Of a stretch of 64,000 nt of DNA, positions 14,414 to 41,289 are shown piece after piece. The translations under genes and the position numbers were made by a program. This DNA comes from Elusimicrobia bacterium GWA2_51_34. GTDB lineage: Bacteria > Elusimicrobiota > Elusimicrobia > Elusimicrobiales > UBA9959. The stretch's first letter is position 1. The number at the start of each line of letters is the position of its first letter. The DNA lies in assembly GCA_001799565.1 (NCBI GenBank), contig MGTS01000012.1, positions 43,466 through 107,465 of the forward strand, read 5' to 3'. The notes under the pieces are model-generated. The model searched no databases, was not told the DNA's origin, and saw only the letters and a list, made by a program, of their open reading frames with translations.

Positions 14414-14415
14414 GG

Positions 14416-15623: not shown

Positions 15624-15636
15624 CTTATCCTCCGAA

Positions 15637-18254: not shown

Positions 18255-18286
18255 ATTTTCTCCTGTTTTTCTGTAAGTTGTCGGTA

Positions 18287-24166: not shown

Positions 24167-24316
24167 CTACCGATGAAACCGGGCGTAAGCGCGGCAGAAA
24201 GGGCAGAATTTTTCCAGCCTGGCCATTACGCGACCATAAAAAGAATCCGGCCAGCACCGCTTTGCCACGCAGAACGGGCAGATGGAAGAAATAAAAGCGA
24301 AAATTTTATCTTTCAT
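24167..24316 (-). CDS. 49-residue protein with two CPFC motifs (zinc-ribbon-like)
   Basis: ATG 24316 lies 4 bases after the stop of the HD-oxidase gene. The protein has CPFC near residues 13-16 and CPFC near residues 38-41, with a CW in between (KRCWPDSFYG). Two CxxC pairs 21 residues apart fit a zinc ribbon or rubredoxin-like knuckle. The composition is protein-like and the position as last gene of a tightly packed run supports expression. It is likely part of the 22-gene run. Family not recognised. Confidence 0.55.
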   Translation of the reverse strand: MKDKIFAFISSICPFCVAKRCWPDSFYGRVMARLEKFCPFCRAYARFHR

Positions 24317-24320
24317 ACGA

Positions 24321-25493
24321 TCAGAGTAATTTCTCATCGCCGGAATATAATTCTTCCACCCGCAACACGGCTGCGGCCACGCGCGGATATTTTGGATCCA
24401 CAATAGCGCGTATTTCCTCATACTCAGGCCCGGAGGTGAAATATTCTATGCGGCCCTTGGCCTGATATGCCTTGCGCGGCTTGGCCAGGAAAAGAAAAGA
24501 ACCCTTGCTGCCGTTTTTTATATTTTCACGCGTTTTGTGAAAGTAATTATCGATTACGGCTATACTGCCGTCCTCCAGCAACTTCATGCCCAGCACATAT
24601 ACGGAATTAGGCAGTCCGTCTTTATCGACTGTGGTAAAAACCGCCGGTCCCTCCCGCAGGTCCCAGGCCGCTTTCAATATTTCTTTTGCGTCCATCTCCC
24701 CTCCCTTGCCTCCAGCGGCTGCCGCTTGCGAAATGTTCTCCAGATTCCTGAAAAAGTCCGCCGTTTCGTCCGTGGCCGGCAATTCCCTGCGCAGCCTGGA
24801 CAGGAGTCCGCGCCGCACCGCCAATCGGTGCGATGCCGGGTAATTCAGATCATAAAACCAGGAGGCCGACATCAGCAGCATGTCTGCCGCCGTACGCAGT
24901 TCCGAGGTGTTAAGCCCGCCCCCGCCGGCAGCCTTGGCCAGCAGTCCCGGCGTCAATTCCCGGCCCGCTTCCATATGCGGCAGCATAACGGGCAGGTAGC
25001 GAAAACCGTCTGCTGCCACCGAAGCCAGCACCACCTCAATTATATCCAGTTTATCGGCGTCGCGCAGCAGCTTAAGCAGTTTCGCGCTCTCTGGTTTCAG
25101 CGCGGGGATATCGGAGGTTCTTCGGTTGTGGTACTGAACCGCCGTAAACAGCCGATCCCGCTCGCACGCATCGCTGAAGAAACCGGCTGCCAGCGCCTCA
25201 AGCGTATTGCGGCCTTCGGCCCCGTGATCCGCAGTATCATCGTCCCTCAGAGAGCCGTGATCCCTGAATTGGGCGAACCTGCCAGCATCGTGCACCAGAC
25301 CGGCCGCCCGGGCCAGCAGGATTTCGCCCGGTGCCAGTCCCAGACCGGCCGCCAGCAGTGCGGCGTTATCAGCCACCCTCAGGCTGTGCGACCGCTTTAG
25401 CTCATACAGCGGATGCAGCGCGCCTTTCTCCCTGAAACCGTCCAGGTACACATCAAACCATCTGTGCAGCGCCGAATATTCACCAGCTCGCAT
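24321..25493 (-). CDS. Fusion of HD-domain phosphohydrolase and pyridoxamine-oxidase-like flavin domain
   Basis: 390 residues. The N-terminal half is an HD domain: His in KRSHSLRVADNA, HD in GLVHDAGRF, a later DHGAEG and DADKLD. The C-terminal 120 residues (from MDAKEILKAAWDLREG) are a split-barrel FMN-binding domain of the pyridoxamine 5'-phosphate oxidase-like type. The linker (AAAGGKGGE) is low complexity. No stop separates the domains. It overlaps the ferredoxin gene by one base. The reaction is unknown; a nucleotide or tRNA-related phosphohydrolase coupled to flavin binding is possible. Confidence 0.8.
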   Translation of the reverse strand: MRAGEYSALHRWFDVYLDGFREKGALHPLYELKRSHSLRVADNAALLAAGLGLAPGEILLARAAGLVHDAGRFAQFRDHGSLRDDDTADHGAEGRNTLEALAAGFFSDACERDRLFTAVQYHNRRTSDIPALKPESAKLLKLLRDADKLDIIEVVLASVAADGFRYLPVMLPHMEAGRELTPGLLAKAAGGGGLNTSELRTAADMLLMSASWFYDLNYPASHRLAVRRGLLSRLRRELPATDETADFFRNLENISQAAAAGGKGGEMDAKEILKAAWDLREGPAVFTTVDKDGLPNSVYVLGMKLLEDGSIAVIDNYFHKTRENIKNGSKGSFLFLAKPRKAYQAKGRIEYFTSGPEYEEIRAIVDPKYPRVAAAVLRVEELYSGDEKLL

Positions 25494-25753
25494 CAGCGCG
25501 GTTTCAGGGCTATGGCCCCGGCGGAGCAGATATTAACGCAGGCCCCGCAGCCGGTACATTTCAGCGTGTCCACAACAGCAATGTCCTTCATGATTAGCGC
25601 TCCGGCAGGGCAGGTATCAATGCAGGCTCCGCAAGACACGCATGTTCCCGCGTCAATCACGGCCAGCGGCGCGGTTTTCTTTTCACAGCCGCCGTTCCCC
25701 TTTCCCGTTCCCGGCCCTTGTCCCCATGGCCCTGTTCCGTCACCTCTTGGCAT
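25493..25753 (-). CDS. DUF5320-like N-terminus fused to a 2[4Fe-4S] ferredoxin
   Basis: 86 residues. It starts with the DUF5320-like glycine motif (PRGDGTGPWGQGPG) and continues with two canonical Fe-S motifs: CVSCGACIDTCP and CTGCGACVNIC, with cysteines spaced 2-2-3. This makes a two-cluster ferredoxin with a glycine-rich handle shared with the free DUF5320 proteins at 25779 and 37598. The ferredoxin domain is certain; the combination suggests that DUF5320 peptides work in the electron-transfer or metal-loading chain of this gene run. Confidence 0.9.
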   Translation of the reverse strand: MPRGDGTGPWGQGPGTGKGNGGCEKKTAPLAVIDAGTCVSCGACIDTCPAGALIMKDIAVVDTLKCTGCGACVNICSAGAIALKPR

Positions 25754-25778
25754 ATTGTCTCCTAATTACCTTTTTCGG

Positions 25779-25958
25779 TTATTTTTTGACGCCGGAACGG
25801 CGCCCTCTTCCCCCGCCGCACCGCGCGCCTTTTCCAAGGCCTTTGCCTCCGGCGCGCGGCGCGTTCTTTGCTTTTCCCGGCCCGCCTGCGCAAGACCCTC
25901 TGCCCCGCCCTGTTTTCGGTCCTTTACCATTGGGACCTGTTCCGTCTTTTCTTGGCAT
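25779..25958 (-). CDS. DUF5320-like glycine-rich small protein
   Basis: 59 residues, start ATG 25958 set by AGGAGG. It begins PRKDGTGPNGKGPKTGRG, the common signature of DUF5320 proteins (DGTGPxGxGPxTGRG) in anaerobes, and then becomes Gly/Arg/Lys-rich with two cysteines (SCAGG, RCGGG). DUF5320 genes are often seen near NifX-like and MinD-like genes, and this holds here. The function is unknown; the basic, flexible sequence suggests binding to an acidic partner or cluster. Confidence 0.8.
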   Translation of the reverse strand: MPRKDGTGPNGKGPKTGRGRGSCAGGPGKAKNAPRAGGKGLGKGARCGGGRGRRSGVKK

Positions 25959-26001
25959 ACAGTTACCTCCTAACACTTTGTTTTTTATCCAACCCTGATT
26001 T

Positions 26002-26865
26002 TTAGGTTTTTATAGGGCCAGACCGCGCCAATACCTGCGCGCCGATTTTAACACCCGCTCGCGCGGCTATTAACGGACATTTGGCTTTGAATAAGAAATA
26101 TACCGGACGCGGAGATTCGCTCAAGGTCTCAAAATTGCCCTGTCCCTTGGCTATGACCATATCCGCATTCTTAAACACGGCGTTAAAGCCCGGCGAGGTT
26201 TCTTCCAGCACGGTGCCGGGCGCGTCAGAACCGTTATTAATTACTTTCACGATTTTATGCAGACCGGCGGCGCGGGCGTCAGCCATAACGGCATCATTAA
26301 GAACCGGGAAGCCCCGGACGGCAAGGGTGACCCGCTGCGGACCCAGTTCTTCTATAAGCAGCCGGTCAAAAACTATTTCGCCGGCATTGTCCGAGATGTA
26401 AAGTATAGAAGCGCTTCTTTTTACCGCGCGGTTGAATGCGGGGAAATTACCTATAAGCGGCTCTTTTACCGCCTGCCGCACGGCTTTTCTGACACCAGAC
26501 AACGTAGTGTCTCCGGCGGCGCCCATATCTATAATATTTCCTGCTATGGCAAGCCGTACCGCGAGGCTCAGCCGGTTTCTTTCGGATCTTATGATATCGC
26601 GGAGCCCCGGCAGCATACGCATGGCCAGGCGATTTTGGCGGGCTTTGGCTGAGCGGTAAGGGTCTTCCACGCCGGTGATTTCACGCAGCCGGCGATGTAT
26701 CCGCTGGCCCATTACAGGGGCGGGCTTTGACATATCCATGTCCTTGCACCACCCCATCACATCCCGCAGTATCCGCTCATGCAGCGTCGGATCGGCGGAA
26801 AACATTCTGGCCGAGTCCAGCGCCTGGCGAAACAGGCAGGGGATGCAGTCAAGAGAGGTTTTCAT
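26002..26865 (-). CDS. DUF89-family damage-control phosphatase-like protein
   Basis: 287 residues. The N-terminal CIPC motif is typical of DUF89 subfamily I. The metal-binding and catalytic signature is present: YISDNAGEIVFD, later KGQGNFETL. DUF89 enzymes are metal-dependent phosphatases that remove damaged or phosphorylated side products of metabolites such as pantetheine or sugar phosphates. The N-terminal cysteines may bind a metal. It lies between the DUF4405-like gene (16-base gap) and the DUF5320 gene (43-base gap). The natural substrate is unknown. Confidence 0.88.
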   Translation of the reverse strand: MKTSLDCIPCLFRQALDSARMFSADPTLHERILRDVMGWCKDMDMSKPAPVMGQRIHRRLREITGVEDPYRSAKARQNRLAMRMLPGLRDIIRSERNRLSLAVRLAIAGNIIDMGAAGDTTLSGVRKAVRQAVKEPLIGNFPAFNRAVKRSASILYISDNAGEIVFDRLLIEELGPQRVTLAVRGFPVLNDAVMADARAAGLHKIVKVINNGSDAPGTVLEETSPGFNAVFKNADMVIAKGQGNFETLSESPRPVYFLFKAKCPLIAARAGVKIGAQVLARSGPIKT

Positions 26866-26881
26866 TTTTTTTGTCTTCCAA

Positions 26882-27517
26882 TCACTGTTTGTTCACCGGT
26901 CTTAATCCCGAAGCTGGTTTTATCATGCACTTGAATCTTTTGGCCGTATGGTAAATCCCGGCGAAAATAAATACGAGCCCGCTTGCGGTATGCCAATATG
27001 AGACAGCGCTGTTATTGATAAACCGGGGGGTATATATACAAAGCAAGCTGGTTGCGGATATCGCTATAAAACTCAAAAGAAGAAGCCAGTTCCAGAAAAA
27101 ACGCAAAAACATTTTCGTTCCGGGCGATATCGCCGATATCGCTTCGGATATTACAACCAAAACCGTCATCGCCGTTAATATTGAAAAGAGCATTTGGCGC
27201 GGGGATTGCCGCCGGCTTTGAATATCATCGCGCCGATTATCCGGTTTTTTTGCGGCCGTATTTTCCGCCAGCGTCGAGGGATTTTCAGACGGCAATTGTT
27301 GTTTCACGCCAAGTGCCGGCTGCGGAGTATTTTGAGCCGTTAGCGTCAATTGCTGTGATTCATCGCATATCCCGTCGCCATCGCTGTCTATATAGCGTCC
27401 GCATTCTCCGGGGGCGCGACAATCTGTTCTTCCATGCGAACAGGCGGAAAACACTGAAAATGGCAAAAGGGAGAGAATACTTGCCAGTAAAATAAATGAA
27501 GCTATGAGAATTTTCAT
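26882..27517 (-). CDS. Membrane protein with secreted Cys-rich DxDxDG motif and DUF4405-like heme-type helices
   Basis: 211 residues from ATG 27517, which overlaps the trmO stop as ATGA. A signal anchor is followed by a short domain with CSHG, DCRAPGECG and IDSDGDGICD, a calcium-like acidic loop flanked by cysteines. After a Pro/Gln-rich linker come three or four helices; the last two carry His (YWHTASG, GIYHTAKRF), resembling DUF4405 proteins, which may bind b-type heme. This layout fits a membrane electron-transfer component facing the periplasm. The assignment is tentative. Confidence 0.6.
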   Translation of the reverse strand: MKILIASFILLASILSLLPFSVFSACSHGRTDCRAPGECGRYIDSDGDGICDESQQLTLTAQNTPQPALGVKQQLPSENPSTLAENTAAKKPDNRRDDIQSRRQSPRQMLFSILTAMTVLVVISEAISAISPGTKMFLRFFWNWLLLLSFIAISATSLLCIYTPRFINNSAVSYWHTASGLVFIFAGIYHTAKRFKCMIKPASGLRPVNKQ

Positions 27518-27957
27518 GTCCGCCAAGTCCTTAAGGGCGGCACGCGGTCCCGCCAGGAGGTATAGTAATAAGGTTTGATATCAAGGAGCGGCGTTCCGTC
27601 AAGGATGTCAACATTGTCCAGGAACAGGATATTCTTTTCACGGCGCAGCAGTTCAACAATGCTGAGTCCCACGGCATTCGGCCGGAGCGGAGCGCGGGTT
27701 GAAAATATCCCCCGCTCAGTGTCCTCCCGCAACGGTTTAATCTTCAGTTTAGCGGGGCCGGCCTTGTTAAAGTGATAGATGAGGTAAATGTGAGAAAAAT
27801 CTTCCAGATCGCATAACCCGTTTTCAAATTCACGGAAAATTTCCGCTTGTCCTTTGCAGCCCCTGGCATAAGCCGGTTGTATGGGTGTCTTTTCAGCCTC
27901 GGTATGCGTACTGCGTATTACGCCTATGGGTTTGAAGCTCAGGATTGCGTTTTTCAT
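27514..27957 (-). CDS. trmO: TrmO/TsaA-family tRNA m6t6A37 methyltransferase-like protein
   Basis: 147 residues, the expected short bacterial or archaeal form. Family motifs: KPIGVIRSTHTEAEKTP at the N-terminus, IFSTRAPLRPNAVGLS in the middle and DILDGTPLLDIKPYYY near the end. TrmO uses SAM to methylate t6A37 in certain tRNAs. In many anaerobes TsaA-like genes lie in Fe-S or metal clusters, so a different methyl acceptor is possible here. Separated by 32 bases from DsrE upstream, overlapping the membrane gene downstream. Confidence 0.88.
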   Translation of the reverse strand: MKNAILSFKPIGVIRSTHTEAEKTPIQPAYARGCKGQAEIFREFENGLCDLEDFSHIYLIYHFNKAGPAKLKIKPLREDTERGIFSTRAPLRPNAVGLSIVELLRREKNILFLDNVDILDGTPLLDIKPYYYTSWRDRVPPLRTWRT

Positions 27958-27989
27958 TTTTTCACCTGGAAGGATGTTTTATCTTTCCG

Positions 27990-28310
27990 TTAAATTGTGA
28001 CCAGCCTGTCGGAATCCCTGACTATCTCATAATGATCCTTAAGTGTTGACAGCGGGCAGATTTCAGAACCTCCGGAGCTTCTGATCTTCAGGCAGGTGCC
28101 GCAGGCCAGGAATTTCCCCCCCGCGGCCAGAAAATTTCCCGCCTCCACTTTGACATTAAATCCTGCATCCTCTATCTTGTCTAGCTCAACTCCCCGGCCG
28201 GAAAGGAAAATCTTAACCTCGTCGCCCTGCTTCAGGCTGTACAGCGCTAATCGCAGCGCGTTGAAAACCGTTTCCGGGTCGGTTTGCGTTATTATCATTC
28301 CCAATTTCAT
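27990..28310 (-). CDS. DsrE/DsrF-family sulfur-relay-like protein
   Basis: 106 residues with the DsrE fold pattern: an N-terminal beta strand (GMIITQTDPE), the helix NALRLALYSLKQGD and the strand VKIFLSG. The likely active cysteines are in FLACGTCLKIR, and CP is in GSEICPLS. DsrE proteins carry sulfur as persulfide. Its place in a run of Fe-S and NifX-like genes suggests a sulfur donor for cluster building (inference). Confidence 0.82.
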   Translation of the reverse strand: MKLGMIITQTDPETVFNALRLALYSLKQGDEVKIFLSGRGVELDKIEDAGFNVKVEAGNFLAAGGKFLACGTCLKIRSSGGSEICPLSTLKDHYEIVRDSDRLVTI

Positions 28311-28371
28311 GTTTCCTCCTCGCCAAATTCCCGCTAATTACGCTTACTATCAGGCGCCAGCTGTCATTGTG

Positions 28372-29109
28372 TTATTTCCGCACTTTTCTTATGACTACCA
28401 TTTTTTTGCCGGTCAGACCCCTGAAATTCGCGCCCTCGCCCAAGTGGCGGAGAAGCAGTGGAATATTGTCCACGACCGTTCCGCCAACGGCGTCTATCCC
28501 ACAATCAAATAATACGGCGCTCAGCGGCGCGGATGGGCCCAATAGTATTTTGAACGCATTTTTATTACATAGTTCCAATATCGGCTCAAAAGTTAGGTTC
28601 AGCAGCGTCAACGCGGTAATCGCAACCGCATCGGCGCGCGGCAGCAGTTTCGCCATCCGTTCCGGAGGAAGATCATCTTTGTCTTTCGGCGCGAGTTCAA
28701 AGACCCATAGTTCTTTGGCCAGCGTCTTCAAGCGGTCCGTGAACGGAAAATGACCTATTACCGCTATATTTTTACCGCGTCCGTGCTCGGCGATAAGTTC
28801 TTCAGCGTTGATCATTTCATATTTAAGCGTCGGCAGGGCGGAATTTATGGCCGCCATGCCGAGCGAAACTTCCGGGCCTTTGCCTGAAAGCGCAAGGGCA
28901 GCCAGTTCTCTTACCGGCGTTCCGGAGAGCGAACCGGCTCTTTGTACCGGTCCGCCGCAGATCCCGTCTTTAACAGTTGTAGCCAAACCGCAACGTGCCG
29001 TGCCGTTTCCATCGGAAGAAACAACGGCAGTGGTAAAAAAACCGATATGGGCCGAGATTATCTTCCTGTCCTGTGTTTCGCTTATAAGTCGTTCAATAAT
29101 ATTCACCAC
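28372..29109 (-). CDS. DUF364/DUF4213 putative heavy-metal-chelation protein
   Basis: 245 residues. The N-terminal enolase-like domain (DUF4213) has CGLATTVKDG; the Rossmann-like DUF364 domain has NIAVIGHFPFTDRL, VFELAPKDKDDLPP and LGPSAPLSAVLFDCGID. DUF364 proteins are described as putative heavy-metal chelators and are often encoded beside metal transporters or molybdenum/tungsten enzymes in anaerobes. Here a ZIP gene is in the same run. The bound metal is unknown. Six bases separate it from the thioredoxin-CcdA gene. Confidence 0.85.
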   Translation of the reverse strand: MVNIIERLISETQDRKIISAHIGFFTTAVVSSDGNGTARCGLATTVKDGICGGPVQRAGSLSGTPVRELAALALSGKGPEVSLGMAAINSALPTLKYEMINAEELIAEHGRGKNIAVIGHFPFTDRLKTLAKELWVFELAPKDKDDLPPERMAKLLPRADAVAITALTLLNLTFEPILELCNKNAFKILLGPSAPLSAVLFDCGIDAVGGTVVDNIPLLLRHLGEGANFRGLTGKKMVVIRKVRK

Positions 29110-29115
29110 ATCTCC

Positions 29116-30465
29116 TTAGTTAAAGATCATGGCTTCCGGCTTAAGCAACATCAGCACACCGAGCGCCAGCATAAGCGCTCCGCTGATGCCTTTCAGTATC
29201 TTACCGTGGGCCTCGGTCATATGGTAGCGGCCCGCGGTACAAACAAAAAGCGCTATTATTAATGCCAGCGGGACTATATAGGCTGCGTTGTATACGGCTA
29301 TATAGCCGTATTTTTGCCAGAAGCCCGCCTGCCTGAGCGAAAGCACCCTGCTGAAGACGGCGGGCAGGCCGATGGTGCAGCCCAGTTCTATGAGGTTGAC
29401 GAATACGGCCAGGGCAGCCGTTGCCGCTATCATGACGGCGGTTTCGCGCTCCGCTATTATCCGGCGTATTTTTTCGCCCAGTTTTATTTTGGCCTTGCCG
29501 GAGATCATAAGCGAGACGCCGCGCCTGAAAAAGAATATTTCCTTGAGGTTTACAAGGCCCATAACGGCGGCTATAACGCCCAGGGCTGTTGTTATCCAGC
29601 GTGCGTGACCGATTATCAAAAAGAGGTTAAACCATGCCGCCATGAAGGCAAAATAGACAAGGGCCGATGTTACGGTAAAAATACCTCCAATGATCAGCAT
29701 TTTGCGCGGCGAGCCGGTATAGGCCAGCAGGCCCATCAGAAACATCAGGACCCACATAGCGCAGGGATTAAGCCCGTCAAGCAGGCCCAGGGCCAAACTG
29801 AAGTTCAGCATTGACACGGAAGAAGGGTCTATTTTTCCCAGCAGCGGGACATTGATACCATGGCTTTCGCAGGGACACCCGGCTTTACCGGTCAGTATGT
29901 CCAGCGCAGCGGTTATTTCCGCCGGAGTGCGGTTTGGGGAGAAGCCAGTCAGCAATTTCTCCCCTATAAAAAACGCAGGGAAACCGGAAGGAGCGGCTTT
30001 ATGCGCCGTCAAATATTGCGCGAAAAGTGTGAGATTGTTTTTATCGCGTTTAACCTCGTAGGTGTTCACGCGCAAACCTGGATAGGCCGCGTTCAGCGTT
30101 GAAAGCCAGGTTATAGCTTTGCGGCAATGTGGACAGTCATAAGCGTAAAAAAACGCGATTTCCGCTTCTATAGGCGCGGACGTAGAAAATGTTGATTTCG
30201 TCAGAACGGATTTTGCCGGTTTAGCGCGCTGAATTGCCGGGGACGGAATTCCCGCGGAAACGGCGGATGAACCGGCCTGAAGTTTCCCGGCAGCGGCGCT
30301 CAGGCCCCTGCCCGGGATTAAACCGCTCTCCTGTTCCAAAAAGGGGAATTTTATTTCGCCGGGCCCGCAGGCGTCAGTCTGCGGGTTCGTCAGACACGGT
30401 TCCTTGACATCAGCCGCGTAAACGCCGGCGCAACAGAAAAACATAACAATGAGGATTTTTCGCAT
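29116..30465 (-). CDS. Thioredoxin-like domain fused to CcdA/DsbD-type membrane domain
   Basis: 449 residues from ATG 30465, which starts a signal peptide (KILIVMFFCCAGVYA). The periplasmic part has a glutaredoxin/DsbA-like motif YDCPHCRK (about 113). The membrane part resembles CcdA/DsbD: LDGLNPCAMWV (about 238) and LIELGCTIGLP (about 363) supply the paired cysteines of the half-barrels. Such proteins move electrons from cytoplasmic thioredoxin to periplasmic disulfides. The domain order (soluble first) is the same as in some c-type cytochrome maturation relatives. It is encoded between peptide deformylase and DUF364. Confidence 0.85.
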   Translation of the reverse strand: MRKILIVMFFCCAGVYAADVKEPCLTNPQTDACGPGEIKFPFLEQESGLIPGRGLSAAAGKLQAGSSAVSAGIPSPAIQRAKPAKSVLTKSTFSTSAPIEAEIAFFYAYDCPHCRKAITWLSTLNAAYPGLRVNTYEVKRDKNNLTLFAQYLTAHKAAPSGFPAFFIGEKLLTGFSPNRTPAEITAALDILTGKAGCPCESHGINVPLLGKIDPSSVSMLNFSLALGLLDGLNPCAMWVLMFLMGLLAYTGSPRKMLIIGGIFTVTSALVYFAFMAAWFNLFLIIGHARWITTALGVIAAVMGLVNLKEIFFFRRGVSLMISGKAKIKLGEKIRRIIAERETAVMIAATAALAVFVNLIELGCTIGLPAVFSRVLSLRQAGFWQKYGYIAVYNAAYIVPLALIIALFVCTAGRYHMTEAHGKILKGISGALMLALGVLMLLKPEAMIFN

Positions 30466-30478
30466 AACTTGCGGGCAA

Positions 30479-31006: not shown

Positions 31007-31011
31007 AATAT

Positions 31012-31824: not shown

Positions 31825-32484
31825 TTAAGCCTCCTTACCCGCTTTCAACTGTGCCAAAATGGTGCGGCAAGGATATACTCTTGTTCCTGGCTGGATGAGT
31901 ATTTCCGCCCCGGCGGGCAGGTAAACCGCAACCTGCGAACCGAAATAAATAAGCCCGAGCCTGCCGCCGGGCCGCAGCGTGTCCCCGGCTTTAAGCGGGC
32001 AGGAGATGCGCCTGGCGATGCTGCCGGCTATCTGTTCCACACCCAGCGTTTCCCCTTCATCCAGTAAAATTTCAATATGGTTCCTGCGGTTAAGCGAAGC
32101 CTCTTTTTTAAAAGCCCGGAAAAAAGTTTCACCAAAAACACCTACGGATTTAACAGTCCCAACCACAGGGGAATACTGGGCATGCACATCCAGCACTGAG
32201 AGAAAGATTCTTATAACAGGACTCCCGTCTTCTAAACCGGTTTTAAGCACCGTCCCGTATGAAGGGGCGAAGATAACGCCGGGTTCTGGTTTATGTGGAA
32301 CAAAGCGTGGCTCGCGGAAAAAGAAAAGGGTAAAAGCCGCTGAAAGCAGGAACAGTGCAGCCGCCGCCGGGAGCAGGGATGGCAATGTAAAACAAAGAAG
32401 TGCCGACAGCGTCAAAGTGCCGCCAAGTTCAATAATCAGCAGGCGCCGCCCTTCTTCCGCAAGCGGGAGAAAGCCGCTTTTCAT
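31825..32484 (-). CDS. psd: Phosphatidylserine decarboxylase-related protein
   Basis: 219 residues, the short form of Psd. Two N-terminal helices are followed by the decarboxylase core: FAPSYGTVLKT, FLSVLDVHAQYSPVVG, the Asn-containing RRNHIEILL, and the autocleavage site IYFGSQVAVYLP where Ser becomes the pyruvoyl group. It makes phosphatidylethanolamine at the inner membrane. Overlap of 4 bases with the radical SAM gene indicates co-translation. The synthase partner gene (pssA) is not here. The pro-enzyme cleavage sequence is GS as usual. Confidence 0.9.
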   Translation of the reverse strand: MKSGFLPLAEEGRRLLIIELGGTLTLSALLCFTLPSLLPAAAALFLLSAAFTLFFFREPRFVPHKPEPGVIFAPSYGTVLKTGLEDGSPVIRIFLSVLDVHAQYSPVVGTVKSVGVFGETFFRAFKKEASLNRRNHIEILLDEGETLGVEQIAGSIARRISCPLKAGDTLRPGGRLGLIYFGSQVAVYLPAGAEILIQPGTRVYPCRTILAQLKAGKEA

Positions 32485-33275
32485 GTTTTCCCCCGCCTTT
32501 TGAGCGTATCAGGCGCGCTTACCGGGGAAACTTCAGGGGCTTTTTCACCGTATACATTGATCACCTTTATCCCGCCCTTGCCGAGTCTCTCAAGCTCCGC
32601 GCCTATTATAAGGCAGGCCGAGGCCATTTCATTTCGGCTGAGAGGTTTTTCTGAACATGGACGCAACGGGGTGTTAAGCTGCACCTCGTCCGGGGAAATC
32701 ATGGTGTAGAGCGCCGCGAAATCCCGCGTGTAAGCCTTATTGCGGTCAATCAGCATGGTCTGTATGGCCAGACGGTTACGCCTGCCTTTTGAAAAAGGAA
32801 CGAGCCCCTTAATTATCTCGTCAAAACATATCCGGGGCCCCGGTCGGTTGATTTTTCTGAAAAGTTCATTATTCGGCGCGTCAAGTTTGGCTATCACAAA
32901 ATCAAAAGCTGTAAGGTCTTCCCGGATTTTTTCTGAACACATCATCGACGCGTTGGTTATCAACGCGGTTTTTTCCGGCCTTAACCTGCCGCATTCCAGC
33001 AGTAATTCCTTCAGGTTAGCCGCAAGGGTCGGCTCTCCCCTGCCTGAAAAAGTAAGGTAATCTGCCGGGGCCTTCAAGGCGGAGAGTTCTGCCCCAAGCG
33101 CCTGCGGTTGCACATAAACAGCGCGTTCCGGATGTACCGGCGCACAGTCGCCCAGCTGGCAGTAAACGCAGTTAAAGTCACAAATCTTTTCTGGGCGTGA
33201 AATCGGGTCTATCCCCAAAGACACGCCCAGCCGCCAGGACCCCACCGGGCCATAGCAGTATTTAAACTCTGTCAT
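32481..33275 (-). CDS. Radical SAM protein, COG0731-like
   Basis: 264 residues. N-terminal GPVGSWRLGVSLGID, then the SAM cluster motif CDFNCVYCQLG (CxxxCxxC), and the glycine motif FSGRGEPT. This group is widespread in anaerobes and archaea and is related to wyosine/TYW1-type proteins; its substrates are mostly unknown. No SPASM or extra cluster motif. It overlaps the DUF169 gene by 4 bases and psd by 4 bases. Confidence 0.88.
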   Translation of the reverse strand: MTEFKYCYGPVGSWRLGVSLGIDPISRPEKICDFNCVYCQLGDCAPVHPERAVYVQPQALGAELSALKAPADYLTFSGRGEPTLAANLKELLLECGRLRPEKTALITNASMMCSEKIREDLTAFDFVIAKLDAPNNELFRKINRPGPRICFDEIIKGLVPFSKGRRNRLAIQTMLIDRNKAYTRDFAALYTMISPDEVQLNTPLRPCSEKPLSRNEMASACLIIGAELERLGKGGIKVINVYGEKAPEVSPVSAPDTLKRRGKT

Positions 33276-33925
33276 GCGCCCGTTCCAGCCATAGCGGGCT
33301 CGCGCCGCCAGGCCCGGACAAATTTTTTCGCGGCATTCTCCGGCAGACAGACACAGACCTGACCCTGCAGGTCAGCGGTTTTTATGGCCTTCGCGCAGCC
33401 CAGCGACAGGGAAGGGATTTTATTGTTTAAAGCCCCCGCCGCACCCTCAGAACAGAAACTCATCACCCCGGTGAATTTACAGGCCAGTTTTTTACCCGCG
33501 ATAACTGACCAGGACTGCGCCAGGCCGTTGGCGGATTCAAGCAGCATAAAAGAAAGGTAAAGGTCGGCTCTGGAACCGGGCAGATTGAAACTTATATAAG
33601 CAGGGCTGAAAGCGAGGCGCTGCACCCCGGAAACTGCGGATTCAGGATTGATAACACGGTTAAGCCGGATTGGGATAAAGCTGCCGAAAGATGGGGCCTT
33701 CGCGCCTGGGACATTGAAAGCGTACTTGGCTCCGCCGCAGGGGATGGTTGAAACTTTAAGCAGCACCGGCTCCGTTATAGCTCGCGCGGCGGCGGCGCAA
33801 AAACTCTCCGGCGAGGAAAGTTGCATCCCGCGCGGCTTTGTTTTGTGAAACTTAACTCCGATCCAATGCGTCCCCATCATTTCCATAAGCACGCTTCTTA
33901 TTTCGCTGCTATTTTCGTTTATCAT
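33272..33925 (-). CDS. DUF169-family protein
   Basis: 217 residues from ATG 33925, chosen because AGGAGG lies 7 bases before it. DUF169 features: WIGVKFHKTKPRG, the SFCAAAARA cysteine motif, STIPCGGAKYAF and a late LGCAKAI. These give four conserved cysteines that may bind Fe-S or metal. The family is found in anaerobic bacteria and archaea and has no established function. It lies between a NifX-like gene (71-base gap, the largest in the run) and the radical SAM gene. Confidence 0.8.
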   Translation of the reverse strand: MINENSSEIRSVLMEMMGTHWIGVKFHKTKPRGMQLSSPESFCAAAARAITEPVLLKVSTIPCGGAKYAFNVPGAKAPSFGSFIPIRLNRVINPESAVSGVQRLAFSPAYISFNLPGSRADLYLSFMLLESANGLAQSWSVIAGKKLACKFTGVMSFCSEGAAGALNNKIPSLSLGCAKAIKTADLQGQVCVCLPENAAKKFVRAWRREPAMAGTGA

Positions 33926-33996
33926 AAGGTTCCTCCTGTAAATTACCAAAACACACAGTTCTACACACCGCAGGAATACGCGGAGACCGTTAAATG

Positions 33997-34317
33997 TTAC
34001 TTTTTCAGATATTCTTCAACAGCCTGACGCACTGTCTTAACTCCGGAAATACCGGTAACGCCTTTTATCCCGGCGGCCTCGATAGCGGTTTTAGCGTTGG
34101 GACCGAGGTCGCCTGTAAGAACCACCTGCGCACCCTGCGCCGCCACCTGGCGCACAGCTTCCGGTCCGGCGCCGCCCTGCATACTCACGGCATTATTTGC
34201 AACCGGGGTAAACTTCATGTTCTCGCTCTCCACTATCACGAAATAAGGCGCCCTGCCGAAACGCTCGCTCACTTTAGCCTCCATCGAGCCGCCCATCGCT
34301 GAAACGCATATTTTCAT
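33997..34317 (-). CDS. NifX/ORP-like cluster-binding protein, short form
   Basis: 106 residues from ATG 34317 (GGAG 5 bases upstream). MKICVSAMGG, ERFGRAPYFVIVE and a late GVKTVRQAVEEY, all of the NifX fold. Unlike the other two NifX-like proteins in this window it has no Cys/His tail and only one cysteine, so cluster ligation would have to come from partner proteins. Part of the 22-gene run, 19 bases after the ZIP gene. Confidence 0.88.
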   Translation of the reverse strand: MKICVSAMGGSMEAKVSERFGRAPYFVIVESENMKFTPVANNAVSMQGGAGPEAVRQVAAQGAQVVLTGDLGPNAKTAIEAAGIKGVTGISGVKTVRQAVEEYLKK

Positions 34318-34336
34318 ATTACTCTCCTTTTTAATC

Positions 34337-35077
34337 TCAATAACCGAATACAAAAAAAGCTATGGTCCCCACACCACCAAGGCCCAGCAGGAACTGCAGC
34401 ACAGGCTTCCCTTTTTCCGGGTGGCGATGCGCCGCCGGGATAAGGTCCGCCAGCGCGATATAAATAAAACTCGCGGCGGAGACGGCCATTACATAGGGCA
34501 AAGCCGGCTTAAACGAGGCCAGCGCATAATAGGCGACGAAAGCGCCGGGCAGCGTAGTCAGCGAAGACGCGATATTGGCCCACAGGGCTTTTTTGCTGGA
34601 CCAGCCGGCCGCCAGCATTATGGCGAAATCTCCAGTTTCCTGCGGTATTTCATGGGCCACCACGGCCAGCGTGGCGGTGTAAGCCAGGGCAGGGGAAACC
34701 AGCAGCGCCGAACCGATAAGAACCCCGTCTATAAAATTATGCAGCGCGTCTCCGATAACAATCACAACGCCGGCTGAGGAATGAACCTCGCAACTTTCTT
34801 TGTGACAATGCCGCCAGAGCAGCGTTTTTTCCAGCCCCAGGAACAGGAAAATTCCGGCCAGCGCCGCGCCCAGCACCGCCGCCGGCGCGGCGCCCATATT
34901 TAGCGCCTTGGGCAACAGGCCCAGGAAGGCGGCGCCCAGCAGGGTCCCCGTGGCGTAACTTATAAGACAGGGGACTAGCCTGCCGCGCGTTTGTTCCGGG
35001 AAAAGCAGGAAGATTCCGGCGGCCCAGACGCTTAACACGCTGCCGGTAAGACTCAGGATAAGCAGTCTCAGTTCCAT
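34337..35077 (-). CDS. ZIP-family metal transporter, second copy
   Basis: 246 residues from ATG 35077, whose first base is the last base of the NifU-like stop (TGATG). Motifs HNFIDG (about 112) and HEIPQE (about 141) on helices IV and V mark the ZIP family. A short loop with HCHKESCEVH lies before helix IV and may bind metal. Expected role: uptake of iron, zinc or another divalent ion for the cluster-building proteins of this operon. It is only distantly similar to the ZIP at 14528 (HNFPEG/HNIPEG). Confidence 0.88.
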   Translation of the reverse strand: MELRLLILSLTGSVLSVWAAGIFLLFPEQTRGRLVPCLISYATGTLLGAAFLGLLPKALNMGAAPAAVLGAALAGIFLFLGLEKTLLWRHCHKESCEVHSSAGVVIVIGDALHNFIDGVLIGSALLVSPALAYTATLAVVAHEIPQETGDFAIMLAAGWSSKKALWANIASSLTTLPGAFVAYYALASFKPALPYVMAVSAASFIYIALADLIPAAHRHPEKGKPVLQFLLGLGGVGTIAFFVFGY

Positions 35078-35439: not shown

Positions 35440-35440
35440 G

Positions 35441-36307
35441 TCATTTTTCCAGTTCGGTCCGTAAAATATTCCAGGCTCTTTCCACAGCATCGGCAGCGAG
35501 ACTGCTGCCATCTTCGCCCAGAGTTTTGCGGTCCAAGAGAGTTTTTACCACCCACGTATCAAATGGAATCCGGCCAAGCAGGCCAAAGCCTAAACCGGTG
35601 GCTACCTTTTCAAGAGTCTCTGTTTCTTCTTTATTTAAATCCCACTTGTTAACCAGCAGGAAGCCTTTTATTTTCTGCTGACGCAGCAGTTCCGCCAGAC
35701 GCAAGAAGTCGTGCCGGCCGGAGACAGTGGGCTCGGCCACGGCCACCACGGCGTCCACGCCGCCAAGCGAGGCCAACACCGGGCAGCCTATGCCGGGGGA
35801 ACCGTCCAGGATAAGGAACTCCTTTCCGGAGGCTTCGGCTGCCTTTACCGCCTCCGTTTTTAAAAGCGCTACCAGTTTGCCGGAATTCTCTTCGGCGGGC
35901 TCAAGGCGCGCGCCGGCAAAGGTTCCGAAACGGCATGGGGAGATTGCCCAGGCGCCGCTTAAAACCTCTTTGAAACTTATCGCTCCTGCGGGGCAGTTCC
36001 AGGCACAGACGCCGCAACCCTCGCAGGAAGTTTCGCTTATGCGGAAAGGCGCGGAGGCGACAGCGTCAAAACGGCAAACCTCCAGGCAGCGCCCGCAGGA
36101 AGTGCACTTGTCGGGGTTGATGGCGGCCTTTTTCCCGCCGAAAAAACTCTTTCTCTCAACCGGTTCGGGGGAAAGTATTATGTGCAGGTCGGCCGCGTCT
36201 ACGTCGCAGTCGGCGGTTATGCAGGGCGCGGCCAGACGCGCGAAAGCTCCGGCCACCGTGGTCTTGCCGGTGCCGCCTTTGCCGCTTAAAATAAGCACCT
36301 GTTTCAT
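35441..36307 (-). CDS. MinD/ParA-type ATPase with inserted 2[4Fe-4S] ferredoxin domain
   Basis: 288 residues. Walker A SGKGGTGKTT (8-17 region), then an inserted ferredoxin-like domain with CTSCGRCLEVC and CEGCGVCAWNCP, then Walker B/switch DGSPGIGCP and NKWD. This domain order defines the MinD ATPases of the ORP complex of sulfate reducers and relatives. All eight cluster cysteines are present, unlike in its partner. ATPase pairs of this type are thought to load metal clusters onto NifX/ORP proteins. ATGA overlap with the gene upstream. Confidence 0.92.
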   Translation of the reverse strand: MKQVLILSGKGGTGKTTVAGAFARLAAPCITADCDVDAADLHIILSPEPVERKSFFGGKKAAINPDKCTSCGRCLEVCRFDAVASAPFRISETSCEGCGVCAWNCPAGAISFKEVLSGAWAISPCRFGTFAGARLEPAEENSGKLVALLKTEAVKAAEASGKEFLILDGSPGIGCPVLASLGGVDAVVAVAEPTVSGRHDFLRLAELLRQQKIKGFLLVNKWDLNKEETETLEKVATGLGFGLLGRIPFDTWVVKTLLDRKTLGEDGSSLAADAVERAWNILRTELEK

Positions 36308-37143
36308 ACGGCGGCCCCCGCTTTTATGGCGGTAAATATTTCTTTAAGCGTTTTAGCGTATTCAGGTCGGACCTCCAGCATTGTCTTTCCGCGCGAATAG
36401 GCAACTGCTATTTCACGGTCAAAAGATATTTTCAGCAGGATCTTAACGCCTTTTTGCGCGCACCAGGCTTCCATCGCGCCATCACCCAGATCATAACGGT
36501 TTATAACAAGGGCGTGCGGAACTTTTATTTTTTTAAGCGTCTCCACGGCCAGCTTCAGGTCACTCAAGCCGAAGGGAGTAGGCTCGCTGACCAGCAGACA
36601 GAAGTCACTGCCGGTCACGGCATTTATCATGGGGCAGGAAGTGCCGGGAGGGCAATCTATTATAACATCGCCGCAGGAAGGGGCCAGTTTTTTTACCGCT
36701 TTTATAAGCCGCACCGGACTTGGCTCCCCTATATTCATAAGACCGTCGGCGAAGAATAAATCCCCGGAACGGCCACGGCGTATTTTACCGGCGGCATGAG
36801 GTTTCTCTGTTATAGCGTGTTCCGGACAGGACAACACGCAGCCGCCGCAGGAATGGCACATGTGTTCAAAGAGGAAAGGTTTGCCGTTAAAAAGCTTTAT
36901 AGCGTTATACTCGCAGACCTGTTGGCAGCGGCCATGCGCGCGGCATTTGGCCGCGTCTATTACGGGCACCGACACGCTAAAATCGGTTTCGGATTCTATT
37001 TCCGGCTTAAGGAACAGGGCACAGTCAGGTTCTTCCACATCGCAATCAAGCAGGGCGACACCGGGGCCCAGTGCCCGCGCCATGGCGGTTGCCAGGCTGG
37101 TTTTTCCGGTGCCGCCCTTGCCGCTTGCGATAGAGAGTTTCAT
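36304..37143 (-). CDS. MinD/ParA-type ATPase with inserted ferredoxin domain, Cys-to-His variant
   Basis: 279 residues from ATG 37143 (TTG 37158 is an alternative). Walker A SGKGGTGKTS, DCDVEEPD, inserted ferredoxin-like domain and DCPPGTSCP. The first cluster motif reads C67-x2-H70-x2-C73-x3-C77, with His in the place of the second Cys; the second motif CHSCGGCVLSC is normal. The partner ATPase has Cys at that place. A His ligand would change redox potential or cluster stability, or the site may be lost. It starts 18 bases after the NifX-like gene and overlaps the second ATPase by 4 bases. Confidence 0.92.
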   Translation of the reverse strand: MKLSIASGKGGTGKTSLATAMARALGPGVALLDCDVEEPDCALFLKPEIESETDFSVSVPVIDAAKCRAHGRCQQVCEYNAIKLFNGKPFLFEHMCHSCGGCVLSCPEHAITEKPHAAGKIRRGRSGDLFFADGLMNIGEPSPVRLIKAVKKLAPSCGDVIIDCPPGTSCPMINAVTGSDFCLLVSEPTPFGLSDLKLAVETLKKIKVPHALVINRYDLGDGAMEAWCAQKGVKILLKISFDREIAVAYSRGKTMLEVRPEYAKTLKEIFTAIKAGAAV

Positions 37144-37161
37144 CTCGTACTTGCGCAACTA

Positions 37162-37539
37162 TTATTGAGCGCAGTCCCCTTCGTGGCCATGGTCTTTGCA
37201 GGGTTCAATGCCGCCCGCCAGTTTGTTTGAAAGCAGCGCCTTTACCGCATCTTCGGCTTTACCCGAGTAGCAGGCTATCGGCACGCCCGCATCCGCGAAT
37301 TTCTGCTGGGCTCCCATGCCCATGCCACCGGCTATAACGTGGGTGATCTTGTGTTTAAGTATTTCTCCCACAGCCTGACAGCCTCCACCGCCATGCTGCG
37401 CGTTATTGGGGACAACTTTAGAGTTTTGTATCTTGCCGTTCTCCGCTTCGACGATAAGGAAATGACTGCATTGACCGAAATGAGCGCAGACTTCGCTTTT
37501 CAAGCCTTGGTCGTCGCTAAGTGTAATTCCGATTTTCAT
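37162..37539 (-). CDS. NifX/ORP-like protein with Cys/His C-terminal tail
   Basis: 125 residues. MKIGITLSDDQ, AHFGQCSHFLIVE and GGMGMGAQQ are the NifX-fold features; the tail reads CKDHGHEGDC. It resembles the protein at 13722 in having a metal-binding tail and an extra cysteine next to the HFG motif. Probably the protein loaded by the two MinD ATPases encoded right after it. A strong hairpin lies in the 58-base gap before it. Confidence 0.9.
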   Translation of the reverse strand: MKIGITLSDDQGLKSEVCAHFGQCSHFLIVEAENGKIQNSKVVPNNAQHGGGGCQAVGEILKHKITHVIAGGMGMGAQQKFADAGVPIACYSGKAEDAVKALLSNKLAGGIEPCKDHGHEGDCAQ

Positions 37540-37560
37540 TCCATTCTCCTTGATTTATGG

Positions 37561-37591
37561 CGCAGACGGGAGCTGAACGCACCCGTCTGCG
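37561..37591 (-). other. Strong intercistronic hairpin between DUF5320 and NifX-like genes
   Basis: CGCAGACGGG (37561-37570) and CCCGTCTGCG (37582-37591) are perfect complements: a 10-bp GC-rich stem with an 11-base loop. On the transcribed strand no T-run follows, so it is probably not a terminator. A structure here could protect the short upstream message or reduce read-through, so the DUF5320 peptide would be made in excess over the downstream proteins. Confidence 0.65.
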
Positions 37592-37597
37592 GCAATA

Positions 37598-37849
37598 TTA
37601 CTTTCCCTCGCCTTTTATCTCACTCATGCGCTTTTCCAGTTCGGAAAGGCGCGTTTTGATTTCTTGTGTCTCGCTTGCAATAAGCTCCTTTTCAGACACA
37701 GGCGACGAAGAACGTCCAAAGACGCCTCCGAACCCGAGTCCCCTGCCGTATGCGCCTTCCCTGCGCCAGGCGCCCCCTCTGCCGCAAGGGCCTCTCCCTC
37801 CGCCCATCGGCCCAGTTCCCATGGGTCCCGTTCCGTCTCTGTATGGCAT
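37598..37849 (-). CDS. DUF5320-family small protein, first gene of the Fur-boxed run
   Basis: 83 residues, start ATG 37849 with AGGAGG 5 bases upstream. N-terminus PYRDGTGPMGTGPMGGGRG with one Cys (GPCGRGG), then a Gly/Arg/Tyr-rich middle, then a charged helix predicted to form a coiled coil (LIASETQEIKTRLSELEKRM). The coil is a common DUF5320 ending and suggests oligomerisation. It heads the run of NifX, MinD, NifU-like and other genes, directly behind a Fur-type box. Confidence 0.85.
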   Translation of the reverse strand: MPYRDGTGPMGTGPMGGGRGPCGRGGAWRREGAYGRGLGFGGVFGRSSSPVSEKELIASETQEIKTRLSELEKRMSEIKGEGK

Positions 37850-37864
37850 ATTTACCTCCTTAGA

Positions 37865-37883
37865 AATGATAATCATTCTCAAT
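37865..37883. promoter_or_regulatory. Fur-type box in front of the 22-gene run
   Basis: AATGATAATCATTCTCAAT on the plus strand, an inverted repeat close to the classical Fur box and matching 16 of 19 positions of the site at 38411-38429. It lies 15 bases before the DUF5320 start codon, overlapping a possible promoter on the minus strand (TTTACA, 16-bp spacer, TATCAT). Binding there by the Fur protein encoded next door would block transcription of the whole run when metal is plentiful. Confidence 0.8.
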
Positions 37884-41282: not shown

Positions 41283-41289
41283 TTAATTT

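Follow-up and report, generated by a model that had tools for sequence, protein, structure and literature searches.

Among the described systems closest to the locus reported here are ORP and IssA. In Desulfovibrio, clusters pass in vitro from MrpORP to Orp3-Orp4-Orp8 (available text of PMC6345978), and the ORP system has a putative role in cell division (PMC6345978, PMC3897727, both as far as their available text goes). In Pyrococcus furiosus, IssA stores iron sulfide; its tail is used below for comparison as given in the available part of PMC5524996. In M. voltae grown on FeS2, a culture that probably senses iron limitation, levels of IssA homologues went up (PMC8516115, available part). Among the literature matches listed, there was no study of the MinD/NifX neighbourhood outside Desulfovibrio, and two papers mention DUF5320. 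Both iron sulfide storage and mobilisation in anaerobes and the role of the widespread MinD/NifX neighbourhoods are poorly understood.

We analysed a stretch of 64,000 nt (the window) from Elusimicrobia bacterium GWA2_51_34 (GTDB lineage Bacteria; Elusimicrobiota; Elusimicrobia; Elusimicrobiales; UBA9959), covering positions 43,466-107,465 of contig MGTS01000012.1 in assembly GCA_001799565.1. Judged by its gene content, the core of the locus resembles known ORP-type systems and is not an oddity.

Gene run and predicted iron control

The minus strand of the window carries 22 consecutive genes between 37849 and 24167, as seen in Table 1. The starts and stops of all 22 were inspected; intergenic gaps run from -10 to +71 bases, figures that rest on the chosen start codons, and a search of these gaps found no terminator-like site. 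With a crude gene caller, the locus gave a same-strand run of 17. One further run of 10 lies elsewhere in the window, and two other contigs (400 kb, 343 genes) gave no run longer than 9. Eleven weak promoter-like sites (9-10/12) lie within the run on its own strand. The lower boundary is not sharp, as a 92-aa ORF lies 57 bases past it. An initial annotation of this DNA had described a one-strand run with gaps of at most 71 bases and overlaps, marked by Fur boxes and built on an ORP/MinD-type core. This description was borne out: the MinD pair, Di-Nase-like proteins and Mrp are present, Fur-like boxes are predicted before fur and before the run, and Pfam agrees with the families named, except for the small second DUF5320-like gene, whose assignment is based on composition.

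Table 1. Features of the gene run and its upstream region, in window coordinates
Feature	Coordinates	Strand	Basis
Fur-like box before fur, 19-base palindrome (8-base arms, 3-base spacer)	38411..38429	-	pattern match; weak vs E. coli 19-mer (12/19)
fur	37898..38365	-	PF01475 over cut-off; single Fur-family match genome-wide
Fur-like box before run, within promoter-like site 37893-37866	37867..37882	-	pattern match; 15/19 vs E. coli 19-mer
DUF5320 protein, N-part Gly-rich cationic, C-part charged	37598..37849	-	PF17253 over cut-off; composition
NifXa, NifX-like, CAHFGQC and C-terminal CKDH; matches Di-Nase part of MrpORP	37162..37539	-	PF02579; NF041136 positions 274-365
MinDA, MinD-type ATPase, ferredoxin insert, switch-II Cys	36304..37143	-	profile match, sequence, alignment
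MinDB, MinD-type ATPase, two 4Fe-4S motifs, switch-II Cys175	35441..36307	-	profile match, alignment
IscU/NifU_N-like scaffold, one of two in genome	35077..35439	-	PF01592
ZIP-family transporter	34337..35077	-	PF02535
NifXb, NifX-like, without tail	33997..34317	-	PF02579
DUF169 protein	33272..33925	-	PF02596; 3/79 further loci, 0/16 relatives
Radical-SAM protein, recurrent partner	32481..33275	-	PF04055
Phosphatidylserine decarboxylase-like (shell)	31825..32484	-	PF02666
Mrp/NBP35-type ATPase, matches P-loop part of MrpORP	31012..31824	-	PF10609; NF041136 positions 2-247, 316.8 bits
Peptide deformylase, one of two in genome	30479..31021	-	PF01327
Thioredoxin-like and DsbD-like membrane protein, not conserved	29116..30465	-	by eye; no family match
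DUF4213-DUF364 protein, putative metal chelation	28372..29106	-	PF04016, PF13938; 3l5o match
DsrE-like protein with CGTC	27990..28310	-	PF02635
TrmO-like tRNA methyltransferase (shell)	27514..27957	-	TIGR00104 over cut-off
Membrane protein, not conserved	26882..27517	-	DUF4405 under cut-off
DUF89/ARMT1-type phosphatase-like protein	26002..26865	-	PF01937; 2ffj
Second DUF5320-like protein, pI 12, 20 Gly/59, no aromatic residue	25779..25958	-	composition
DUF5320 N-part and ferredoxin fusion, two 4Fe-4S motifs	25493..25753	-	PF17253 and PF00037 over cut-off
HD domain and PNPOx-like protein (shell)	24321..25493	-	domain match
49-aa protein, two CPFC motifs	24167..24316	-	homologues at loci of 3/16 relatives

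The fur gene, the only one of its family found in the genome, lies 48 bases upstream of the run on the same strand. Its product scored below the cut-off of each NCBIfam equivalog: Fur (116 bits, cut-off 220), PerR (86.8, cut-off 180) and Zur (39.1, cut-off 167). The box before fur touches the -10 element of a sigma70 promoter at 38457-38428 (12/12 match). When up to two mismatches were allowed, TTGAGAATNATTNTCA matched four times in the window, all at the two Fur-like boxes (0.39 expected; four or more matches in 2 of 100 shuffles). Across the 2.63 Mb genome, just three sites fit the box pattern with at most one mismatch, and two of them are these boxes. The third, C42:223100, sits within a 131-aa frame that has no iron link by eye and was not taken as a sign of a wider Fur regulon. 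Scored against the E. coli Fur 19-mer, the run's box matched at 15/19 positions, equalled by 0/300 shuffles, and the box before fur at 12/19, equalled by 42/300. An inverted-repeat search with a minimum length of 14 bases found none at the boxes, whose arms are shorter than that minimum. Sigma54-like sites numbered 57 in the window against 68.6 expected.

Fifteen other fur genes lie near a MinD pair. A box was found before fur in 11 of them and after fur in six (L026, L029, L032, L034, L055 and L123), each reached by at most 2/300 base shuffles; a good box after fur was absent in the other nine, and L097, L119 and L040 have no good box on either side. The most probable reading of the 22-gene run is a single Fur-repressed operon, expected to be on at low iron, with internal promoters possible. 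Iron-loaded Fur would occupy both boxes and keep fur and the run off, and loss of iron would free both.

Recurrence of the core in other genomes

A core of DUF5320, two NifX-like proteins, the MinD pair, the IscU-like protein and Mrp is found again, complete or partial, in 16 Elusimicrobiota relatives and at 79 further loci, mostly in other phyla (7 of the 79 have no phylum assignment). These 79 are the best 80 of at least 295 confirmed loci minus L074, a duplicate of L033 (both 23,773 long, with the same genes) that is still inside the counts of switch-II residues, strand sharing, DUF5320 composition and the DUF5320 filter. The relatives' loci hold NifXb (13 of 16), NifXa (12), MinDA (12), Mrp (11), Fur (8) and NifU (7), and the further loci MinDA (74 of 79), NifXb (63), NifXa (56), Mrp (37) and NifU (26). 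The same strand is shared by 117/117 partner ORFs in the relatives, whose genomes also supplied 20 control stretches; these contain none of the run's families except for one MinDA-type hit. The core is recurrent and the remaining genes form a looser shell. Many of the run's families are therefore found together elsewhere, as the initial annotation had proposed to check. Its suggestion that the 22 genes make a complete pathway is not supported in that form: in G084, the nearest relative, whose MinDB is 68% identical, the core is accompanied by ZIP and DsrE, and the thioredoxin/DsbD-like and DUF4405-like genes recur in 0/96 loci.

These counts bear on operon accretion, an explanation in which the core is functional but the bulk of the 22 genes has no relation to it and only shares a strong promoter. 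We give it appreciable, though less than even, weight. G084 has little beyond the core, and tblastn at 1e-4 over 40 kb of it found no radical-SAM, DUF364, DUF89, peptide deformylase, phosphatidylserine decarboxylase or DUF169 gene. Two genes of the run recur nowhere, as stated, and two more, those for DUF169 and HD-PNPOx, are in 0/16 relatives' loci. Absences say little in several relatives, as their contigs stop a few kb or less from the MinD pair. Against accretion, the radical-SAM, DsrE, ZIP, DUF89 and peptide deformylase genes stand beside the core in 3 to 5 of the 16 relatives and in none of the 20 control stretches. Also, in 6/7 carriers (149 genomes) the radical-SAM gene and the MinD pair share a contig, making this gene a near-exclusive partner of the core and the shell gene tied tightest to it. 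Its best NCBIfam hits are viperin and TYW1 models, far under cut-off. The DUF364, DUF89, peptide deformylase and other genes would belong with it to a variable shell.

NifX-like proteins, DUF5320 and metal supply

The cysteine motifs of NifXa were compared with the available text of PMC6345978. Its C-terminal end is acidic (pI 5.3) and bears His and Cys, and NifXb (106 aa, domain 13-105) ends with its domain. The first 50 residues of 37 DUF5320 ORFs have median values of pI 10.8, 16 Gly, 6 Lys/Arg and 5 aromatic residues, with pI spread from 4.8 to 12. A composition filter, set after the DUF5320 ORFs had been seen, was passed by 23/37 of them and by 0/1788 background ORFs. NifX-DUF5320 fusions exist: of 10 tailed NifX proteins scanned out of 41 ORFs (8 of the 13 cationic Gly-rich ones and 2 others), 4 have DUF5320 over the Pfam cut-off behind the NifX domain, and 5 have no DUF5320 match, including both from Elusimicrobiota (L030, L034). 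Whether loci with a tailed NifX tend to lack a separate DUF5320 was also considered, and the difference was not significant (2/13 vs 30/83, P 0.21, hand count). Because of their composition and these natural fusions, DUF5320 proteins can be likened to the cationic, Gly-rich tail of IssA, the iron-sulfide store, in the form of a detached protein.

As the genome search gave no clear FeoB, iron is a plausible choice for the divalent metal that the ZIP protein would import. PF02421 gave 4 matches over cut-off, the best at 42.9 bits, in frames of 306-480 aa, which were taken for other GTPases by score and length. One match under cut-off, in a 763-aa frame, was likewise taken for another GTPase.

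The MinD pair and cluster carriers

A Cys lies 7 residues past the switch-II Asp in 79/81 MinDA and 95/95 MinDB ORFs that have a P-loop, whereas Mrp has Asp at this position in 46/49; ORFs without a P-loop (8 MinDA, 1 MinDB, 2 Mrp) are left out, and for 4 MinDB ORFs the right motif match is the second, not the first. In hhalign comparisons of up to 70 ORFs per MinD family with 10 NifH-type sequences of relatives, the switch-II Cys of both partners aligned to the Cys of NifH DVLGDVVC, and the MinD pair had no Cys at the second NifH ligand position (GVGCAGR). In the MinDA of the window, His replaces one Cys of the first ferredoxin motif. Natural MinDA-MinDB fusions are common (85/123 fused proteins aligned). 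A model of a fusion (pLDDT 88.8, pTM 0.87) came near ApbC, MinD, BchL, NifH and HypB in a fold search. The search does not settle how the halves pack, as ArsA spans both at TMq 0.40. A role in nitrogenase cofactor assembly was ruled out because the whole genome has no TIGR01287 (NifH) match at E 1e-40, with 9 candidates scored.

The HypB match, together with a weak profile match to CooC (E 0.018), would also suit a metallochaperone like CooC or HypB that loads a single client encoded elsewhere, and one interface Cys per subunit may be better suited to a metal ion than to a 4Fe-4S cluster. We consider this unlikely, as no constant client gene stands beside the core among the 83 of 489 neighbours without assignment that were scanned. 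The commonest families among those scanned were beta-lactamase-fold (11) and methyltransferase (8). BacA as a neighbour was an artefact: one stop-to-stop ORF joined a methyltransferase to BacA, and the BacA counts are mostly methyltransferase.

The core is similar to the ORP system of Desulfovibrio, except that MrpORP is divided between two genes: against the MrpORP model NF041136 (cut-off 450 bits), Mrp covers the first part and NifXa, at 53 bits, the second. A second IscU in the genome (C21:222426) is a stronger match than that of the run and adjoins a class-V aminotransferase of the cysteine-desulfurase type (C21:220772); therefore, the run is unlikely to be the cell's main Fe-S assembly system. 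SufBD was looked for in the genome and not found. The least probable alternative, a plain ORP-type scaffold whose MinD and NifX-like proteins aid septum placement or other housekeeping with Fe-S only structural or redox, draws on the presence of much of the Orp3/Orp4/Orp8/Orp9 set and its putative division role in Desulfovibrio (available text of PMC6345978 and PMC3897727), but control that looks Fur-like and not sigma54, a NifH-type Cys absent from Mrp, and IscU-like, DUF364 and ZIP neighbours make it very doubtful.

Proposed function

Our preferred reading, on which we are evenly divided, is one Fur-repressed low-iron operon in which NifX and DUF5320 proteins would hold Fe and S while the IscU-like protein, Mrp and MinDA-MinDB make clusters and load them into clients. 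NifXa and NifXb would gather Fe and S, and DUF5320 would wrap the anionic iron sulfide as a detached IssA-type tail. The IscU-like protein may shape clusters, with sulfur perhaps from the DsrE-like protein, and Mrp may carry them as MrpORP does in Desulfovibrio. MinDA and MinDB, so often fused, probably form a heterodimer with ATP bound between the subunits. The ferredoxin modules and the NifH-equivalent switch-II Cys of each half would serve in reducing, releasing or inserting a cluster. Against this explanation, it is odd that a store should be made when iron is short, ferritin-type storage following the reverse logic, although the rise of IssA homologues in M. voltae noted above points the other way. 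ZIP, DsrE and DUF364 are patchy in occurrence, and a search of the same-genus genome G045 gave no MinDB match at E 1e-30. The spread of DUF5320 pI, the second copy with no aromatic residue, the tailed NifX proteins with no DUF5320 match, the missing second NifH ligand Cys, the His in the first MinDA ferredoxin motif and the fur genes with no good box also weigh against it.

A bolder and rather improbable version is that a split IssA (NifX and detached DUF5320) stores Fe and S as thioferrate. A paired or fused MinDA-MinDB, a self-wired NifH-like ATPase motor with one ligand Cys per subunit, would draw clusters out of it, aided by Mrp, the IscU paralogue and the radical-SAM enzyme. Such a system would mirror nitrogenase cofactor assembly without nitrogenase, under the single Fur of the organism.

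The locus connects the MinD/NifX neighbourhood with likely iron control. DUF5320 gains a testable role as a detached IssA-type tail, and the MinD pair a testable active site in the NifH-equivalent Cys. This core also occurs in records whose titles name many bacterial and archaeal phyla and, therefore, one experiment would inform many genomes.

Comparison with known systems

The ORP complex and orp operons of Desulfovibrio vulgaris share with the locus two MinD-type ATPases with ferredoxin motifs (available text of PMC6345978) and a one-domain NifX-like (Di-Nase) protein, PF02579 being over cut-off twice in the run. An Mrp module and a Di-Nase module are also common to both, as a single MrpORP in D. 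vulgaris and as two genes here (PMC6345978, available text). The ORP genes form two divergent sigma54 operons, whereas the run has one direction, Fur-like boxes and a sigma70-like promoter, and it adds IscU-like, DUF5320, radical-SAM and other genes. With IssA, the P. furiosus iron-sulfide/thioferrate store, the likeness is a NifX-type domain accompanied by a cationic Gly-rich sequence; IssA has its cationic Gly/aromatic C-terminal tail on its own chain, whereas the tail-like DUF5320 of the window is a separate gene. The MinD pair resembles the ATP-dependent reductases NifH and BchL in fold, P-loop and the aligned switch-II Cys, but has its own ferredoxin insert, consists of two different subunits and is without the second ligand Cys. 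Finally, the locus is like FeMo-cofactor assembly by NifB, NifX and NafY in that a radical-SAM protein occurs together with NifX-type carriers and a scaffold of the IscU/NifU type. The radical-SAM protein of the locus is not NifB, however: it matches PF04055 only and, unlike NifB, has no NifX domain fused to it on the same chain.

Layout and gene content of the run

The initial annotation had described 22 genes on one strand with short gaps and overlaps, which was confirmed: the 22 genes are consecutive, with spacing of -10 to +71 bases, and fur lies on the same strand 48 bases upstream. The families it had named (MinD/Mrp ATPases, a NifX-like pair, NifU-like, ferredoxin, DsrE, ZIP, DUF364, DUF169, DUF89 and DUF5320) gave Pfam matches. 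Pfam supported DUF5320, two NifX-like proteins (PF02579; NifXa and NifXb), two MinD-type ATPases with ferredoxin inserts (the MinD pair, MinDA and MinDB), NifU_N/IscU-like, ZIP, DUF169, radical-SAM (rSAM), phosphatidylserine decarboxylase-like (PSD), Mrp, peptide deformylase (PDF), DUF4213-DUF364, DsrE, TrmO, ARMT1/DUF89, a DUF5320-ferredoxin fusion and HD-PNPOx. A crude gene caller, which missed several small genes, counted 17 in the run; with gaps of at most 71 bases, its longest co-directional run in 400 kb of two other contigs (343 genes) had 9 genes, and it gave another 10-gene run elsewhere in the window. The run is real, unusually long and Fur-boxed; its core is widespread and its shell variable.

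Coordinates of the run, its control sites and other features of the window
Feature	Position	Strand	Basis or context
Run	37849-24167	-	22 genes
Second DUF5320-like gene	25779-25958	-	reading frame; starts MPRKDGTGPNGKGP
PDF	30479-31021		within run
MinDB	35441-36307		within run
Fur-like box before run	37867-37882		within one mismatch of TTGAGAATNATTNTCA
Promoter-like site before run	37893-37866		contains box
fur	37898-38365	-	
Palindrome	38411-38429		
Fur-like box before fur	38412-38428		within one mismatch of TTGAGAATNATTNTCA
fur promoter	38457-38428		12/12 sigma70 match
DUF134	39484-39831		
Na+/H+ exchanger-family gene	40000-41193		upstream of DUF134, PTA and fur
Fluoride riboswitch	41211-41290		RF01734, 45.8 bits
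Second metal-looking group	12238-19453		
Third NifX-like gene	13791-14054		within second group
Open reading frame	50513-59290		2925 aa
nhaA-I riboswitch	63831-63879		RF03057, 46.5 bits; near contig end

The genome has two peptide deformylases, the second being that of the run, and DUF89 and PDF are also near each other in loci L028, L037 and L049. The second metal-looking group contains, by eye, ZIP, HupE/UreJ-like, ZnuA- and ZnuB-like proteins. The fluoride riboswitch is just upstream of the exchanger gene.

Distribution of core and shell

MinDB was matched in 17 of 149 Elusimicrobiota genomes, the window's own included (E 1e-30), and was not found at that threshold in the same-genus genome G045. 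The expectation that the run's families occur together elsewhere held for many of them, firmly for the core and more loosely for the shell.

Loci with each family: 16 loci of relatives (eight family codes) and 79 further loci (best 80 of at least 295 confirmed, duplicate L074 removed)
Family	Relatives	Further
MinDA	12	74
NifXb	13	63
NifXa	12	56
Mrp	11	37
NifU	7	26
DUF5320 (a or c)	7	
Fur	8	7
DUF134	4	23
rSAM	5	19
DUF89	4	14
DsrE	5	0
ZIP	4	1
PDF	3	2
49-aa protein	3	
DUF5320-Fd	3	
DUF364	2	5
TrmO	2	3
PSD	1	1
DUF169	0	3
HD-PNPOx	0	2
Thioredoxin/DsbD-like	0	
DUF4405-like	0	
Control genes outside run: NaH	0	0
rSAM2	0	0
PTA	0	1
S9 peptidase	0	1

Partner ORFs were on MinDB's strand in 117/117 cases in relatives and in 428/446 in the best 80 further loci (L074 included). 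Twenty control stretches (301,843 bases) from the same relatives gave one MinDA-type and two rSAM2-type matches, the rest of the set being absent, and 400 kb of the window's own genome gave four ferredoxin-type, two Mrp and one each of ZIP, NifU and rSAM2. The nearest relative, G084, has Fur, DUF5320, NifXa, MinDA, MinDB, NifU, ZIP (30% identical), NifXb, Mrp, DsrE and DUF134; the other run genes were not found in the 40 kb examined. Since the shell families are patchy and G084 has little beyond the core, core and shell should be kept apart. A class I SAM methyltransferase-like protein, absent from the run, adjoins the MinD pair in ten loci (L032, L034, L047, L050, L055, L056, L061, L069, L105 and L117), and metallo-beta-lactamase-fold proteins recur near the pair (11 of 83 unassigned neighbours scanned).

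rSAM was present in seven of the 149 genomes (E 1e-40), six of which also had MinDB, always on the same contig (Fisher P 5.9e-6, or 4.4e-5 when the window's genome is excluded). In the seventh, G070 (L203), rSAM directly follows NifX-like (NifXc) and ZnuB-like genes, all direct neighbours. DUF364, for which PMC2954201 proposes a metal chelation role, was found in nine of the 149 genomes, and five of these belong to the 17 that have MinDB (P 0.001, or 0.005 if the window's genome is set aside); in G080 and G006 the two are on different contigs. The identification of rSAM as NifB was rejected: no NifX domain is present in it, and viperin and TYW1, its top curated models, were both far under cut-off.

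Control region and cell context

The claim of Fur boxes at the run was borne out: in the genome of 2.63 Mb, TTGAGAATNATTNTCA with at most one mismatch occurs three times, once before the run, once before fur and once on contig 42 within a coding frame. The -10 of the fur promoter touches the palindrome. Eleven weaker promoter-like sites were found inside the run on its strand (whole scan, 29 vs 14.3 expected). The scan gave 29 terminator-like sites vs 27.4 expected, and those on the run's strand were all inside genes. This pattern suggests that the run is likely a single predicted transcript.

Boxes were scored with an E. coli 19-mer against 300 base shuffles per fur gene. The box before the run was strong (15/19, reached by 0/300 shuffles) and that before fur weak (12/19, 42/300). 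Among 15 other fur genes near a MinD pair, 11 had a box before fur reached by at most 2/300 shuffles (L026, L029, L030, L031, L032, L035, L049, L055, L056, L085 and L123), and six had one within about 110 bases after fur (L026, L029, L032, L034, L055 and L123); neither was found in L097, L119 and L040. fur is the genome's only Fur-family gene (assembly 97.84% complete), and curated cut-offs do not separate Fur from PerR for its product. Iron-loaded Fur may repress the run, and the Fur regulon is apparently one locus. DUF134, presumably an HTH-like, regulator-like protein, adjoins the core more commonly than Fur in the further loci (23/79 and 7/79). A regulator swap of DUF134 for Fur is possible.

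The genome search did not find SufBD, NifH (E 1e-40) or, judged by score and length, a clear FeoB match. Three aminotransferase class-V matches were strong, and one adjoins a strong IscU on contig 21. Since this second IscU is beside a class-V aminotransferase, the run likely supplements a housekeeping ISC system and does not replace it.

Comparison with known systems

Four new points carry the most weight: the link between NifX and DUF5320, the MinD pair's NifH-type cysteine together with the natural fusions of the pair, a radical-SAM protein as partner, and a Fur regulon that seems confined to one locus. We infer the predicted function of the run in all its parts.

IssA, the iron-sulfide store of Pyrococcus furiosus, is described in PMC5524996 as a NifX-type domain joined to an unstructured tail of pI 10.7, in which cationic, aromatic and glycine residues abound and for which thioferrate binding is proposed; according to PMC8351635, the NifX domain may serve as a scaffold on which clusters or thioferrate-like compounds form. 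In contrast to this single chain, both NifX proteins of the run are tailless and DUF5320 is encoded separately, by three DUF5320-type genes, one fused to ferredoxin. The first 50 residues of DUF5320 beside the core (37 ORFs, 32 loci) had a median pI of 10.8 (4.8 to 12) and medians of 16 Gly, 6 Lys/Arg and 5 aromatic residues; for the first copy in the window these counts are 18, 7 and 5, and the second copy has no aromatic residue. A composition filter, chosen after inspection of the 37 ORFs, was passed by 23 of them vs 0/1788 background ORFs. C-terminal extensions of at least 25 residues occurred in 41/186 NifX ORFs, 13 of them cationic and Gly-rich, including those of Elusimicrobiota relatives L030 and L034. 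PF17253 (DUF5320) was over cut-off behind the NifX domain in four of ten tailed proteins scanned (L108, L102, L044 and L119); it scored slightly below cut-off in L053 and gave no match in L030, L034, L049, L065 and L096. Composition and fusions thus suggest, short of proof, that DUF5320 could be a detached IssA tail. According to PMC8516115, IssA homologues increase when M. voltae is grown on FeS2, where the cells presumably sense iron limitation; this makes an iron store under iron shortage less odd.

Desulfovibrio MrpORP combines an Mrp domain with a Di-Nase domain carrying CXHFGHCE and CDH motifs, and hands clusters to Orp3-Orp4-Orp8 in vitro, as PMC6345978 reports. This one protein is split into two genes in the window: Mrp covers positions 2-247 of the 365-position MrpORP model (316.8 bits), and NifXa, with CAHFGQC and CKDH, covers 274-365 (53 bits). 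The orp genes are described as under sigma54 control (PMC3897727), whereas the run has one direction and is not divergent, and no excess of sigma54-like sites was found in the window. Because it departs from two defining ORP features, the run is not classed as an ORP system; by analogy, it is predicted to work like one.
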